NCBI GenBank assembly: GCA_028285305.1 | Contig: JANQPV010000022.1 | Coordinates: forward strand, 201,322 to 265,321 | Length of the DNA stretch: 64,000 bases | Direction: 5' to 3' | Source: Alphaproteobacteria bacterium | GTDB lineage: Bacteria > Pseudomonadota > Alphaproteobacteria > SMXP01 | In this document: positions 3-5,824 of the stretch, piece after piece | Numbering within the stretch: position 1 is the first letter of the stretch | Layout: the number at the start of each line of letters is the position of its first letter | Position numbers and translations under genes: made by a program | Notes under the pieces: model-generated | What the model saw: the letters and a program-made list of their open reading frames with translations, nothing else | Database searches by the model: none | What the model was told of the DNA's origin: nothing

Positions 3-3000
3 TACGATCCGGATCGCTCGCAGGTCATCATCTCGAGCCGGAAGTATAATTCGGACGAAGAATGGACAAACCGTGCGGTGATGAAAATGCGTACGCGGTC
101 GGTTGTGGAGCCCAATTTCCCGGATTGGCCGGAGCCGGAGGATGATGAAGATCCAACCTGGCAGGGTGCCTTTTACGATGATTTGCATGAAGCGAATCAC
201 TTCTACGGGCCGACCTTCCAAGGTGTTCAGTGTTCGGCGAACGGCGAAACAGGGTCGGGCGTTGCCTGGGCGAGTATCGCGCTTCCGCCGAGCTTAGAAG
301 GCAAGACGGACGGGTATGTGTTCCATCCGTCTTTGATGGACGCGGTTCTGCAGACGTTTTCTGGCGCTGTCGATACTCTCGACGAGAACAGCAAGGAAAA
401 AATCACACTTCCCATCGGTATTCGGCAAATTCACATCTATCGTGAAGTGCCGAATAGAATGCGGGCCCTGAACGTCGTTACTCGTCAAACCAATGACGAG
501 ATCGAGTCCGACGTTTACGTCACCGATGAGGATAAAAATCCGGTGGCCATCCTGAGGGGCTTTGCCTGTAAGCGGCTTCCGCGGGTTGGGGCTTCCCAGT
601 CTGACGAAGTGCTTGCCGCGACGTACCAAGAAGAATGGCGTGCCTTGGATGTGTCCTTGGAAGACGAGGCAGATCTGACGGGTAAACGTCTTGCTGTCTT
701 GGTTGCCAATGAAGATCAGTTGGTGGCAGCGGTTCGCGATGCGTGGCATGCGGCCGGCGGAACAAGTGAGACGCTTTACGGCGTTGCGGGCCATGTGGAT
801 GCGCAAGACCCGACGAGCTTCAGCTTGAAGGACAGCGCCGCCGTCAAGGCCGTGGGTGAACGTCTCCTGTCGGAAGACTTCGACACGATCATCTCGTTCC
901 TTCCACTGGCTGGTTCTGGTGAGGCCCGTGCAAATCTTATGGATGCGCAGACTTTCGGTACCTTGGCTCACCTTCATCTTGCTCAAGGTCTGCAGTCTGA
1001 CGATGCCAAAGGGCCCCGTATGTTCGTGATTACGCGCAACGCGGCTCCTGTGGGTGATGCAAATGGTGAAATGAGCCTGGCGCAAACGCCTGTTTTCGGT
1101 ATGGTCCGCACGTTGGCGAACGAGCTCAAGAACGTTCGTCCGATGGCGATCGATCTGGAAATCGGTGGACGCGCTCAGGAGTGTGCTGAGCAGATCCTCA
1201 ATGACGTCGTTGCTGATACACCGGAAGTTCAGGTGGTCTACCGCGGTGGCCGTCGCTTGGTGAACCGGATTGCGGAAGTCAAGCCAACGGCGCTGCCTGC
1301 GCGGAAAAAGCCCGCATACGATACAGACCGGACGGTTCCGTTCCGTGTCACGATGCAGAATCCGGGCGTGATCGACAGCATCAAATTGGTCGAGCTTGCG
1401 CCTCCTGCGCCTGCTGACCGGGATGTGGTTGTTGACGTTAAGGCGGTCGGTTTGAACTTCCGAGACATTATGGCAGCGACTAATTTGTTGCCTGAAGAAG
1501 CGGAAGAGGGCGATTCTTGGGACAATCTAGGTCTCGAGTTCGCCGGTATTGTCCGCTCCGTCGGTTCTGAAGTTACGAATCTCAAGCCGGGCGATCGGGT
1601 CATGGGTCAGAGCAAGGGTACGCTCCGGACACAGATCAGCTTGCCGGCTGCGATTTGTAATCGAGTTCCTGCGGATGTCAGCTTCGAAGAAGCGGCCAGC
1701 ATGCCGACGGCCTTCATGACGGCGCTTTACTGCTTAAAGACTGTCGGGCGTTTGGCCAAGGGTGAGCGCATTCTTATCCATGTGGCCACCGGCGGTGTGG
1801 GTCTTGCGGCCATCCAGATTGCAAAAGAAATTGGTGCCGAGATTTTCGCGACCGCTGGTAGCGATAAGAAGCGTCAATATCTTCGCGATTTGGGTATTGA
1901 GCATGTCATGAATTCGCGTTCCCTCGATTTTGCTGATCAGATCATGGAGATCACCAACGGCGAAGGCGTGGACCTGGTTCTGAATTCATTGCCCAAGGAC
2001 TATATCGAGAAGGGTCTGGATGTACTGCGGCCATTTGGTCGGTTCGTTGAGATCGGAAAGGTCGACATTTACCAAGACAATCCGATCGGCATGAAGGCTT
2101 TGCGTAAGAACATTTCGTTCACCGCTGTTGACCTTGCCCGTATCGAAGAAGGTGGCCCGCACCGCATTCGCGACTTGCTTGATCTGTTTGAAAGCGAGTT
2201 GGCGAGTGGACGTATTTCCGGATTGCAGAGAACGACGTTCCCTGTTTCGGATTGCAGCGGGGCCATGCGCTTCATGACGCAAGCCAAGCATATCGGCAAA
2301 GTCGTTGTGACCATGGATGACCCGACGGCAGAGGTAAATCTGTCCACGGAAGGCCCGATGCAGTTCCGCAAAGATGGTGCTTACCTGATCACCGGTGGTC
2401 TCAGCGGTTTTGGTATGCAGGTTGCGCGCTGGATGGCGGAAAGCCAGGCTGGTCACATCTATCTGATGGGCCGCTCGGGTGCCGACAAGCCAGAAGCCAA
2501 AGCGTTTGTGGACGAACTTACGGCGGCTGGCCATAGCGTGCATGGCGTCAAGGGCGACGTTACGTCTCTCAGCGATGTCCAGCGTGTGGTTTCGGAAATC
2601 CAGACGAGCGGCGCAACGCTTCGCGGTGTGCTGCATGCGGCGACGCTCTATGAAGACGGCTTCATTGAGCAGCAGGACGAAGAAAAGTTCACGCGGGTTC
2701 TTGGTCCAAAGATGCTTGGTGCGTGGAATTTGCACGAAGCGACGAAGGATCTTCCGCTTGAGCATTTTGTTATGTTCTCGTCCATCGCGGCGGTTGTCGG
2801 CTCACCCGGTCAGTCGAACTATGTGGCCGGTAACACGTTCCTCGACTCCTTTGCGGCATACCGCCAGGCTAACGGCCTGCCGGCCTTGTCGATCAATTGG
2901 GGCGCGATGAGCGGAGCTGGTTTTGTCGAAGACAATGCGGCCCTTGCCTCTTATCTCGAAAGCATCGGTATGCTTGGTGTGGAGATGGAAGACGCCTTTG

Positions 3001-4874
3001 CGGGTTTGTCTCACCTACTGCGCCAAGAGCCCTCGAATGTGATTTTGGCTCGGATCAAGTGGTCCGCTCTGCCGAAAGACTTTGCAGGTACGGATCGCTA
3101 TCAAGAACTCGTGGATGCTTCCAAGTCTGGTGCGTCGACGGGCGGCGGCAAGATCAAGCAAGAGCTCTTGGCTCTCGAGGAGGAGGAGCGCATCGAGCGT
3201 CTCGTTGATTATCTTGCCGAGCAAGTTGCTCAGGTCTTGAAGGCTGATGTGTCCGCGGTTGAAGTTGATCGTCCGCTCAACGAGTTCGGATTGGACTCGC
3301 TCACATCCTTCGAGCTGAAAAACAAGCTGGAAGCCAACCTTGATGCGGTTATCCCTGCCAATGTGCTTCTTCAGCGTCCAACGCTTGAAGGGCTGGCAGA
3401 GGCTGTGTCGAAGGTCTTGGAGGACGACGCCGGTTCCGGCTCTGACTCCGGTGACGATCTGGGTGATGTGGGTGATGCATCTGCCATCATCTCCTTCCAT
3501 CAGAAGAAGCTCTTGGCGCAGATCGACCGGGTCTCGCCGGACTCCGATTACCGGACGTCGACGTTGATCCGCTATGCGATCAGTGTTCAGCCAGGGCTGG
3601 ATGTGGAGTTGCTTCGTCAGTGCATGGCCGAAGTGATGGAGCGTCATGAGGACTTGCGGAGCTATTTCCCGACAGTAGACGGGGAACGCACCGTGGCGAT
3701 CCTGGAAGAGCCGGTTGATACGGTCTTCGAGTATGACGTGACGGATCTTTCTGAAGAGGCGTTCCAAGCCAAGATCGACGAAGACAGCAACAAGGTCTTT
3801 GACTACGAGACCGGACCGCTGATGCGTCTCAACATCTATCATCGTCCTGAGAAGGAAGATGTGTTGATGATGGTCTTTGAGCAGGTCGTGATCGACGGGT
3901 GGTCTCTGGCTCTCGTCATGAACGAACTCTTCATGCTCTATCAGTCCAAACTGTTCGGAACAGACTCCGGTGTCGATCCAGAGCCCGTGCCGTACCGTGT
4001 CTTCTCCAATTGGCAGAAGAAGTTTCCGGAAACGGATAACGGTAAAGCGTATGAGGCGTATTGGGAGAGGAAGCTCGATGATCTCGGGCCAGCGGTCAGA
4101 CTTCCGTCCGACCGGCCTCGGGTGAGCGTCTATCCTGAGCGGATCAAGTACACGGACCTCGTTCTGCCTGCAGAATTGTCTGCCCGCTTGGCGGATACGG
4201 CCAAAGAGATGCAGGTCACCATGTACCACATCACGAATGCGGCGTTTAAAGTGATGCTGCACAAGTTGAGCGGTGCAGAGGACATTGTCCTCAACTCTGC
4301 GGTCACCGGCCGGACATTGGCCGAGTTCGAGAAGATTGTCGGACCGACCTTTGCCATCTTGCCGTTCCGTGACCGGATCGAAGACCCGAACATGTCGTTC
4401 GCTGACTTTGTGAAGCGTGTGGCTGTAACGGTTCGCGAAGGCCTCATCAATCAGCACATCGATCCTGAGCGGATTGCTGAGTTTGCCGATGTGGATCTGG
4501 CGAGCGACAAGGTCACCCCGCTCAATCAGTTCGTCTTCTCTATGCTTCGCCCTGAGCGCGGCGAGTCCGAAGGCGTGGCTGACTTGGGTATCGAAGGCGG
4601 TGCGGACAAAGTCGAATTCGGTGACTATACGATCCGTTCGGTGCGGGCCGATATGCGCCGCAGTGCGATCGATATCTACACGTACTTTGTTCACTTGAAC
4701 GGCCGGACGAGCTTCCGGATGAGCTACAACAGCGATGTGTACTCAGACGAAACCTTTGCAGCGTTCATGCAATACTACCAGGACATCATGTCCATTATTG
4801 CGAGCAACCCGGAAGTGAGCTTGTCTGAGCTGCCGGTTCTGCAGGCGCTGTCAGTGACGCACGCTGCTGAATAA
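3..4874 (+). CDS. Type I polyketide synthase, C-terminal part (DH-ER-KR-ACP-condensation)
   Basis: The reading frame is open to the left edge, so the N-terminal modules lie outside the window; 1623 residues are visible. Domains in order: the second half of a dehydratase (GPTFQG at 207, HPxxxDA with the catalytic Asp at 324-341), a KR structural subdomain (about 620-1260), an enoyl reductase (NFRDIM at 1455, nucleotide loop GGVG at 1791), a ketoreductase (TGGLSGFG at 2391, Ser at 2778-2783, catalytic Tyr at 2820), an acyl carrier protein (GLDSL, phosphopantetheine Ser codon 3297) and a full-length condensation-type domain (about 3480-4850). This is the layout of a fully reducing synthase. The condensation domain has EQVVIDG at 3879-3899 where the family has HHxxxDG, so the catalytic His is Gln, although the later GRxxxEFxxIVGP block is kept. 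Product unknown. The fully reducing organisation recalls fungal LovB-type enzymes, which also end in a condensation-like domain. Confidence 0.95.
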   Translation, partial: YDPDRSQVIISSRKYNSDEEWTNRAVMKMRTRSVVEPNFPDWPEPEDDEDPTWQGAFYDDLHEANHFYGPTFQGVQCSANGETGSGVAWASIALPPSLEGKTDGYVFHPSLMDAVLQTFSGAVDTLDENSKEKITLPIGIRQIHIYREVPNRMRALNVVTRQTNDEIESDVYVTDEDKNPVAILRGFACKRLPRVGASQSDEVLAATYQEEWRALDVSLEDEADLTGKRLAVLVANEDQLVAAVRDAWHAAGGTSETLYGVAGHVDAQDPTSFSLKDSAAVKAVGERLLSEDFDTIISFLPLAGSGEARANLMDAQTFGTLAHLHLAQGLQSDDAKGPRMFVITRNAAPVGDANGEMSLAQTPVFGMVRTLANELKNVRPMAIDLEIGGRAQECAEQILNDVVADTPEVQVVYRGGRRLVNRIAEVKPTALPARKKPAYDTDRTVPFRVTMQNPGVIDSIKLVELAPPAPADRDVVVDVKAVGLNFRDIMAATNLLPEEAEEGDSWDNLGLEFAGIVRSVGSEVTNLKPGDRVMGQSKGTLRTQISLPAAICNRVPADVSFEEAASMPTAFMTALYCLKTVGRLAKGERILIHVATGGVGLAAIQIAKEIGAEIFATAGSDKKRQYLRDLGIEHVMNSRSLDFADQIMEITNGEGVDLVLNSLPKDYIEKGLDVLRPFGRFVEIGKVDIYQDNPIGMKALRKNISFTAVDLARIEEGGPHRIRDLLDLFESELASGRISGLQRTTFPVSDCSGAMRFMTQAKHIGKVVVTMDDPTAEVNLSTEGPMQFRKDGAYLITGGLSGFGMQVARWMAESQAGHIYLMGRSGADKPEAKAFVDELTAAGHSVHGVKGDVTSLSDVQRVVSEIQTSGATLRGVLHAATLYEDGFIEQQDEEKFTRVLGPKMLGAWNLHEATKDLPLEHFVMFSSIAAVVGSPGQSNYVAGNTFLDSFAAYRQANGLPALSINWGAMSGAGFVEDNAALASYLESIGMLGVEMEDAFAGLSHLLRQEPSNVILARIKWSALPKDFAGTDRYQELVDASKSGASTGGGKIKQELLALEEEERIERLVDYLAEQVAQVLKADVSAVEVDRPLNEFGLDSLTSFELKNKLEANLDAVIPANVLLQRPTLEGLAEAVSKVLEDDAGSGSDSGDDLGDVGDASAIISFHQKKLLAQIDRVSPDSDYRTSTLIRYAISVQPGLDVELLRQCMAEVMERHEDLRSYFPTVDGERTVAILEEPVDTVFEYDVTDLSEEAFQAKIDEDSNKVFDYETGPLMRLNIYHRPEKEDVLMMVFEQVVIDGWSLALVMNELFMLYQSKLFGTDSGVDPEPVPYRVFSNWQKKFPETDNGKAYEAYWERKLDDLGPAVRLPSDRPRVSVYPERIKYTDLVLPAELSARLADTAKEMQVTMYHITNAAFKVMLHKLSGAEDIVLNSAVTGRTLAEFEKIVGPTFAILPFRDRIEDPNMSFADFVKRVAVTVREGLINQHIDPERIAEFADVDLASDKVTPLNQFVFSMLRPERGESEGVADLGIEGGADKVEFGDYTIRSVRADMRRSAIDIYTYFVHLNGRTSFRMSYNSDVYSDETFAAFMQYYQDIMSIIASNPEVSLSELPVLQALSVTHAAE

Positions 4875-4964: not shown

Positions 4965-5060
4965 CGTCATTGCGAGCGAAGCGAAGCAATCTAGGAGGGG
5001 TGAGTGTACAGAAAGAGGTTCTGGATCGCCGCGCCGACCTATGGTCGGCTCGCGATGACG
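4965..5060. repeat. Palindromic intergenic element
   Basis: It begins CGTCATTGCGAGC and ends GGCTCGCGATGACG, which are imperfect inverted repeats, with a short internal inverted repeat (GCCGAC..GTCGGC). It fills the space between two convergent genes. Other elements in the window share the GTCAT..ATGAC ends. Confidence 0.6.
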
Positions 5061-5080: not shown

Positions 5081-5824
5081 CTAAAACCAATGCGCAGACC
5101 AGATACCTCCGGGGGCGGCGAGGAAGTAGTGCACTTCGCGGGGCGCTCCTTGGTAAGAAAGCGCGCAGCCATGGCCCTCGATCTCTGGCGCCGTTTCGAC
5201 GGTAAAGTCCAGCGATCCGGGGGCAGAGAATGAAGCCACCCGCGCGCTTGTGTCATCAAGCTGGGCGTACATGAGCTTGGGGGACGGCATGACGCCCGTT
5301 CCGATGGCTTTGCCGAAGGCCTCTTTAGCCGTCCACATGGCGGCAAAGGCCTTTGGACGCTTGTCCCTCGTTAACCGGTCGATGGCGCGGGCTTCGTCTG
5401 GGTTAAGGCACTCGCCGATCAGGGCGGGAAGCCGCGCATAGGTGGGAAAGGGCTCCAAGTCCACACCCACCGGTCCTGATGTCGACCAGGCCACGACCAG
5501 CCAGTCTCCCGCATGGGACAAAGAAAACGAGTGGGAGCTAAGATCGTTGATGCGAAAGCCGCCCTTCTGGTCTTTTTCCGTCTGGATGTTCTGCGGATTG
5601 GTTCCCGCCAAGGTCCCGGCGATGATTCGCAGGGCGGCTCTCGTGCGCACAAACATGGGGTGGCGCGGCGTACCCTCTAGCTTTTTGGCGGTTTCGCGAT
5701 CCTCCGCACTCAGGTGTATCAGATCTGCTTCCGTTGCTGCCGAGCTGAGCGGCACGCGCAGGACGGCGAGCTCTGCGGCGATCAGAGGGTCAGCGGCGGT
5801 GTTTTCCAGCCAAGTGGTAGGCAT
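5081..5824 (-). CDS. Sfp-type 4'-phosphopantetheinyl transferase
   Basis: This enzyme moves the phosphopantetheine arm of CoA onto the Ser of carrier proteins. The 247 residues carry the two family signatures: GVDLEP (about residue 119, Mg2+ binding) and WTAKEAFGKAIG (about residue 165), at the usual spacing for Sfp/EntD enzymes. The start is ATG at 5824; no strong ribosome binding site is seen. It is convergent with the polyketide synthase and separated from it by a terminator and a repeat, so it is transcribed independently. It is the natural candidate to activate the synthase ACP at base 3297, which is inferred from proximity. Confidence 0.92.
   Translation of the reverse strand: MPTTWLENTAADPLIAAELAVLRVPLSSAATEADLIHLSAEDRETAKKLEGTPRHPMFVRTRAALRIIAGTLAGTNPQNIQTEKDQKGGFRINDLSSHSFSLSHAGDWLVVAWSTSGPVGVDLEPFPTYARLPALIGECLNPDEARAIDRLTRDKRPKAFAAMWTAKEAFGKAIGTGVMPSPKLMYAQLDDTSARVASFSAPGSLDFTVETAPEIEGHGCALSYQGAPREVHYFLAAPGGIWSAHWF

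Follow-up and report, generated by a model that had tools for sequence, protein, structure and literature searches.

What does a condensation (C) domain do at the very end of a reducing polyketide synthase (PKS), and what becomes of it when its catalytic histidine is lost? To our knowledge the role of such a terminal domain is unsettled, that of LovB included. The question is raised here by an alphaproteobacterial genome, of which we analyzed a stretch of 64,000 nucleotides (the window). It opens inside a PKS gene, here called PKS1, whose last domain reads EQVVIDG where the motif HHxxxDG would be expected. The features of PKS1 and of the gene downstream, in window coordinates, are:

3..4874, + strand: C-terminal 1623 aa of PKS1 (open reading frame; the gene begins upstream of the window)
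162..593, + strand: part of the dehydratase domain (PS-DH; Pfam)
1416..2309, + strand: enoyl reductase domain (Pfam ADH_N and ADH_zinc_N)
2376..2912, + strand: ketoreductase domain, catalytic residues intact (Pfam, residue reading)
3207..3407, + strand: acyl carrier protein, serine of GLDSL present (Pfam, residue reading)
3480..4874, + strand: C-terminal condensation domain, full length (Pfam, fold model, structure match)
3879..3899, + strand: EQVVIDG where HHxxxDG is expected (translation, alignment)
5081..5824, - strand: phosphopantetheinyl transferase (PPTase), Sfp/HetI-type (PF01648), downstream of PKS1, with counterparts in the related cassettes L045 and L055

The complete protein has 2629 aa (L003:6807-14696) and is, as the original prediction had it, a reducing PKS that ends in a C domain, with the order KS-AT-DH-ER-KR-ACP-C in Pfam. 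The active-site residues of the KS, AT, DH, KR and ACP and the nucleotide-binding motif of the ER are all present. The C domain comes directly after the ACP and is followed by the stop codon, with no A or T domain behind it. Iterative use of PKS1 is suggested because there is a single module. In NCBIfam its best PKS match was the sulfolipid-synthesis enzyme Pks2, at 604 bits far short of the cut-off of 2400, and PF16911 (PapA_C) was absent from its Pfam matches. An open frame of 559 aa runs antisense to the C domain (window 3015-4694, - strand); it is probably an effect of composition, and no evidence for a gene was found.

At window positions 3879-3899 (+) the codons GAG CAG GTC GTG ATC GAC GGG read E Q V V I D G in frame, exactly as first reported, and they correspond to residues 2299-2305 of the full-length protein (Glu2299 and Gln2300, in the context FEQVVIDGWS). 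The remainder of the domain had been described as full length and conserved. This description holds well, since the Pfam Condensation profile (PF00668) matches with 184.3 bits against a cut-off of 30.6 (E 4.5e-54) over profile positions 32-447 of 456, and neither a frameshift nor a stop was found across the 1.4 kb of the domain. We aligned 213 C domains from 78 named genome contigs, the window's included, 210 of them coming from other contigs. Among these 210 the first motif histidine is found in 97% and the second, the catalytic one, in 92%, while the motif Asp is universal (210/210). The window domain keeps the Asp and the Gly and has Gln in the column of the second histidine, which bears out the claim that the catalytic residue was lost; it is not a canonical HHxxxDG domain. 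The pair EQ occurs in the window domain alone (1/213), and Glu at the first position in no other C domain among those compared. The second histidine is missing in 19 of the 213 domains, and apart from EQ the losses are HF in the first C domain of another PKS of the same genome (PKS2, described below), a single HQ and a single YQ, both with Gln at the second position (HQIILDG in L037 and YQIAYDG in L062), and HS at 15 Paraburkholderia loci.

Those Paraburkholderia loci (among L070-L110, e.g. L070:13124-15427) encode a protein of about 770 aa with the sequence HSLVMDGWS beside a PKS-NRPS; here a C domain lacking the second histidine is conserved between species. For the window domain we also considered a heterocyclisation domain (DxxxxD) and rejected it, as EQVVIDG does not match. 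Outside the motif, 63 of the 106 well-conserved columns (at least 60%) are kept, compared with 58 and 57 in HH-bearing relatives from the same type of gene cassette. One further conserved position is altered: the Asn of VGxxxN, conserved in 82% of the domains and kept by the same-cassette relatives, is Ala at residue 293 of the window domain, 158 residues beyond the motif and near the active site. To go from His-His to Glu-Gln takes at least three base changes in two adjacent codons.

The predicted structure tells a similar story of completeness. The AlphaFold2 model of the window domain, built on an alignment of 45 sequences, had a mean pLDDT of 89.4 and a pTM of 0.90, with values of 91-95 in the blocks around the motif. 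Comparison with solved structures by Foldseek and VIA-align gave as best match the NRPS C domain 6p1j (Z 41.1, 2.5 A over 436 residues), and similar superpositions were obtained with the X domain 4tx2 (Z 37.8) and with the condensation domain of MokA, 6ad3 (Z 36.6, 2.4 A over 421 residues, 20% identity). The domain is thus predicted to have the complete, normal double CAT-like fold of C domains. MokA is the LovB-type enzyme of monacolin K synthesis, and the comparison with the CON domain of LovB drawn in the original prediction was a reasonable one in view of this superposition and of the shared architecture.

The genes upstream of PKS1 encode an autotransporter, a LolA-like protein (PF17131), a barrel-like protein that matches nothing in Pfam and an MMPL/RND exporter of 862 aa. 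A set of five genes (PKS with C domain, MMPL exporter, LolA-like protein, PPTase and barrel) is therefore complete in the genome of the window (L003 plus window 5081-5824). No thioesterase turned up among the typed cassette genes, and none of the genes typed with Pfam codes for a P450. A palindromic repeat-like element, CATTGCGAGCGAAGCGAAGCAATC (window 4968-4991), sits between PKS1 and the PPTase gene, with one copy in the window where none would be expected by chance.

Related cassettes were detected in three genomes of one genus of the same class (L045, L049 and L055). Their PKSs have 2617-2628 aa and the same domain order as PKS1, and are followed by the MMPL and LolA-like genes, although the gene order of these cassettes is unlike that of the window; the PPTase and the barrel were seen in L045 and L055. 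Identity to the window proteins was 54% for the KS, 58% for the KR, about 45% for the ACP, 34% for the MMPL exporter, 44% for the barrel and 42% for the LolA-like protein. The C domains are only 26-27% identical to the window domain and all three read HHTLMDG, the intact motif. To the question whether EQ is conserved in orthologues the answer is accordingly no, and EQ is not a trait of the family, because the same-cassette relatives keep HHTLMDG. Closer orthologues were sought widely. The PKS1 gene is present in 0 of the 4 other genomes of the window's order, and only distant relatives were found in the order (5 genomes), in the class (385) and in a sample of the phylum (398). Searches of the relatives of G266 and of the order of G233 likewise gave only distant relatives, and the best matches in plasmids were NRPS-type C domains with less than 28% identity. 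As far as the sampled genomes show, loss of the histidines is specific to the lineage of the window, because the three genomes with the same cassette retain HHTLMDG. Orthologues with intact HHxxxDG, showing a recent inactivating mutation, would by the original prediction count against it. Half of this is borne out, since such relatives do exist, but the loss cannot be called recent because it required at least three substitutions, the domain shows no decay and the gene is missing from the four other genomes of the order.

In the phylogenetic tree the window domain falls into one group (SH-aLRT 95) with the cassette relatives and a C domain from a PKS-NRPS, L035 (motif HHIIADAWS); this placement carries a long-branch warning. 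When the long-branched L045 group was left out, it still paired with L035 (SH-aLRT 97). The terminal branch of the window domain measured 1.94 compared with 0.68 for L035. The trees were built without fungal sequences, and the nearest relatives found were bacterial. Besides, the third-position GC of the C domain (3480-4871) was 0.71, compared with 0.61-0.65 elsewhere in PKS1, and exceeded the value of each stretch of 465 codons tested in the remainder of the gene (0.64 at most). This is a weak hint that the C domain may have a history separate from that of the rest of PKS1, perhaps a separate acquisition.

A family search revealed four C-type domains in the genome of the window: the one of PKS1, two in PKS2 and one in a stand-alone protein. 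PKS2 is a second reducing PKS of 3113 aa on another contig (L004:1939-11280) that ends in ACP-C-C. The motif is HFSVADD (HFxxxDD) in the first of these C domains and HHLFIDG (HHxxxDG) in the second. The same tandem is found in L105, another alphaproteobacterium, with HASALDR (HAxxxDR) followed by HHLVTDG, and in the tree the first domains pair with each other (99) and, separately, so do the second ones (91). In this second type of PKS, then, the sequences place a C domain without the second histidine next to the ACP and keep it beside an intact one. PKS1, unlike PKS2, lacks a second, intact C domain. Pfam gave 37.4 bits to the first C domain of PKS2 and 49.2 to its counterpart in L105; the identity of the former rests mainly on Pfam, because its AlphaFold2 model was only moderate (pLDDT 71.6). 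No homologues of the MMPL, LolA-like or barrel proteins were found around PKS2. The PKS2-like frame of L105 (1724-11260), from a metagenome-assembled genome, is interrupted twice by an in-frame TGA, once past the KS region and once ahead of the final C domain; separate genes, recoding or sequence errors are candidate causes.

The stand-alone protein (L121:7541-8899, - strand) is a PapA5-type acyltransferase with PapA_C (PF16911) and Condensation domains and an intact HHVIGDG. Across the 385 genomes of the class no other PapA_C protein passed the cut-off, and the three genomes with the HH-bearing cassette have none. Its best PDB match was the phthiocerol dimycocerosyl transferase 8s6l (E 2e-31). 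Its gene lies on a different contig and shows no linkage to PKS1; the genes around it code for a sulfotransferase, a molybdopterin oxidoreductase and an acyl-CoA dehydrogenase.

How could these pieces work together? PKS1 would act iteratively and, being equipped for full reduction, would assemble a largely reduced acyl chain while this is bound to the ACP. Judging from the gene content, the MMPL exporter, the LolA-like protein and the barrel would carry the resulting lipid to the outer membrane or the surface. In the relatives with HHTLMDG the fused C domain would most likely hand the finished chain to an acceptor, much like the PapA acyltransferases of the mycobacterial PKS-PapA-MmpL systems. 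In PKS1 the position behind the ACP is the same and the fold is predicted to be, and both motif histidines are gone. Here we infer a putative docking site for the ACP or a partner protein, or else a gate for chain length, with the chain being released elsewhere. We give roughly an even chance to this reading, in which the domain is a non-catalytic pseudo-C domain. It is the most likely one because the first histidine and the Asn of VGxxxN are changed in addition to the second histidine. It is also favoured by the fact that EQ is unique among 213 domains in a protein that otherwise keeps the conserved positions, the predicted fold and the remaining PKS residues, and by PKS2 and L105, which maintain an ACP-adjacent C domain without the second histidine beside one that is intact. 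Further points in its favour are the closest solved folds, which are C domains and include an X domain that forms no peptide bond, the gene set shared with HH-bearing relatives, the place of the domain in the tree among those of related alphaproteobacterial PKSs, the presence of the PapA gene, the small activity that H-to-Q left in fuscachelin C3 (PMC8097023) and the contact between a PKS and its MmpL transporter in mycobacteria (PMC1238737). For release in trans the PapA5-type protein would be, speculatively, the best candidate. That the fused releasing domain turned into a docking domain while this acyltransferase took over release is a longer chain of events and a quite unlikely one in our estimate, speculative as it is from a co-occurrence in one genome of two unlinked genes.

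The original prediction had proposed that the domain may bind the chain and release it by another route, or have only a structural or acceptor-binding role. The part that stands is the loss of the histidine in a complete domain, while inactivity does not follow from it. The domain may retain activity, because the C domain of ORF18 in streptothricin synthesis works with a natural Gln at the second histidine (HQxxxDM), a change of this Gln to Ala lowers its activity, and mutation of the second histidine in C domains does not always abolish activity (PMC11546977). PKS1 could therefore still have a catalyst with an altered site, in which Gln2300, perhaps together with Glu2299 or with an ordered water, holds the acceptor in place or stabilises the transition state, so that the chain is released onto an alcohol, an amine or water. 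The recurrence of Gln at this position in L037 and L062, the retained Asp, Gly and other conserved residues and the lack of a thioesterase among the typed cassette genes all agree with that. Yet the H-to-Q change H2697Q left only about 1% of the activity in the C3 domain of fuscachelin synthesis (PMC8097023), HH-bearing cassette relatives exist, and the first histidine and the Asn are changed as well, with a Glu shared by no other domain compared. We consider a surviving activity the main rival reading, possible but on balance doubtful. A plain relic, in which function was lost recently in this lineage and the loss tolerated through another releasing enzyme or a disused pathway, fits the orthologous gene sets with an intact motif, a gene common to no relative in the order and the long end branch of the domain. 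But a decaying gene would hardly run through 1.4 kb without a frameshift or a stop while keeping conserved positions as its intact relatives do, a confident predicted fold and an intact PKS, nor would at least three base changes be expected at two neighbouring codons, and we find this explanation unlikely. An error of assembly or sequencing at the motif is extremely improbable: the domain comes from a single genome, but at least three bases in two neighbouring codons separate the motif from His-His with the frame unshifted, and the Asn that lies 158 residues beyond it is altered too.

In PKS1 the terminal C domain has probably given up the usual way of chain release, a small variation on what is known from fungal enzymes. 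The CON of LovB and MokA is likewise a C domain that follows the ACP of a reducing PKS with no adenylation domain, and its solved fold (6ad3) is the one predicted for the window domain; the match of the window domain to fungal CON was detectable in sequence by profile only. In the crystal structure of the LovB/MokA CON the motif is reportedly mutated and the entrance for the acceptor blocked. The cassettes offer natural versions with and without the catalytic histidine, and therefore the role of the C domain can be tested by comparison. LovB and MokA differ from PKS1 in being fungal enzymes whose C-methyltransferase is active and whose ER is a separate one that acts in trans (PMC7870829). The X domain of glycopeptide synthesis (teicoplanin, 4tx2) is a docking platform with the C fold, similar to the predicted fold of the window domain, that makes no peptide bond; its motif is of the HRxxxD type, against EQVVIDG here, and it recruits P450 enzymes. 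ORF18 shares the Gln with the window domain but has kept the first histidine and is active, joining an oligopeptide to an aminoglycoside (PMC11546977).

At the level of the locus, a further comparison is with the mycobacterial PKSs Pks2 and Mas with their PapA and MmpL partners. In mycobacteria a PKS and its transporter MmpL7 interact (PMC1238737), which sets a precedent for an exported lipid here. The genome of the window likewise has a PKS beside an MMPL exporter and a PapA5-type protein, and the locus points to an uncharacterised lipid pathway of Gram-negative bacteria with a likeness to the way mycobacteria assemble their surface lipids (PKS, acyltransferase and MMPL exporter). If release in trans were true, it would be the Gram-negative counterpart of the PKS-PapA-MmpL logic, and a switch from cis to trans would be visible against the HH-bearing cassettes. 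In contrast to the mycobacterial system, the acyltransferase gene is unlinked to the PKS, PKS1 carries a fused C domain without the histidines, and the partners are Gram-negative ones, a LolA-like protein and a barrel.
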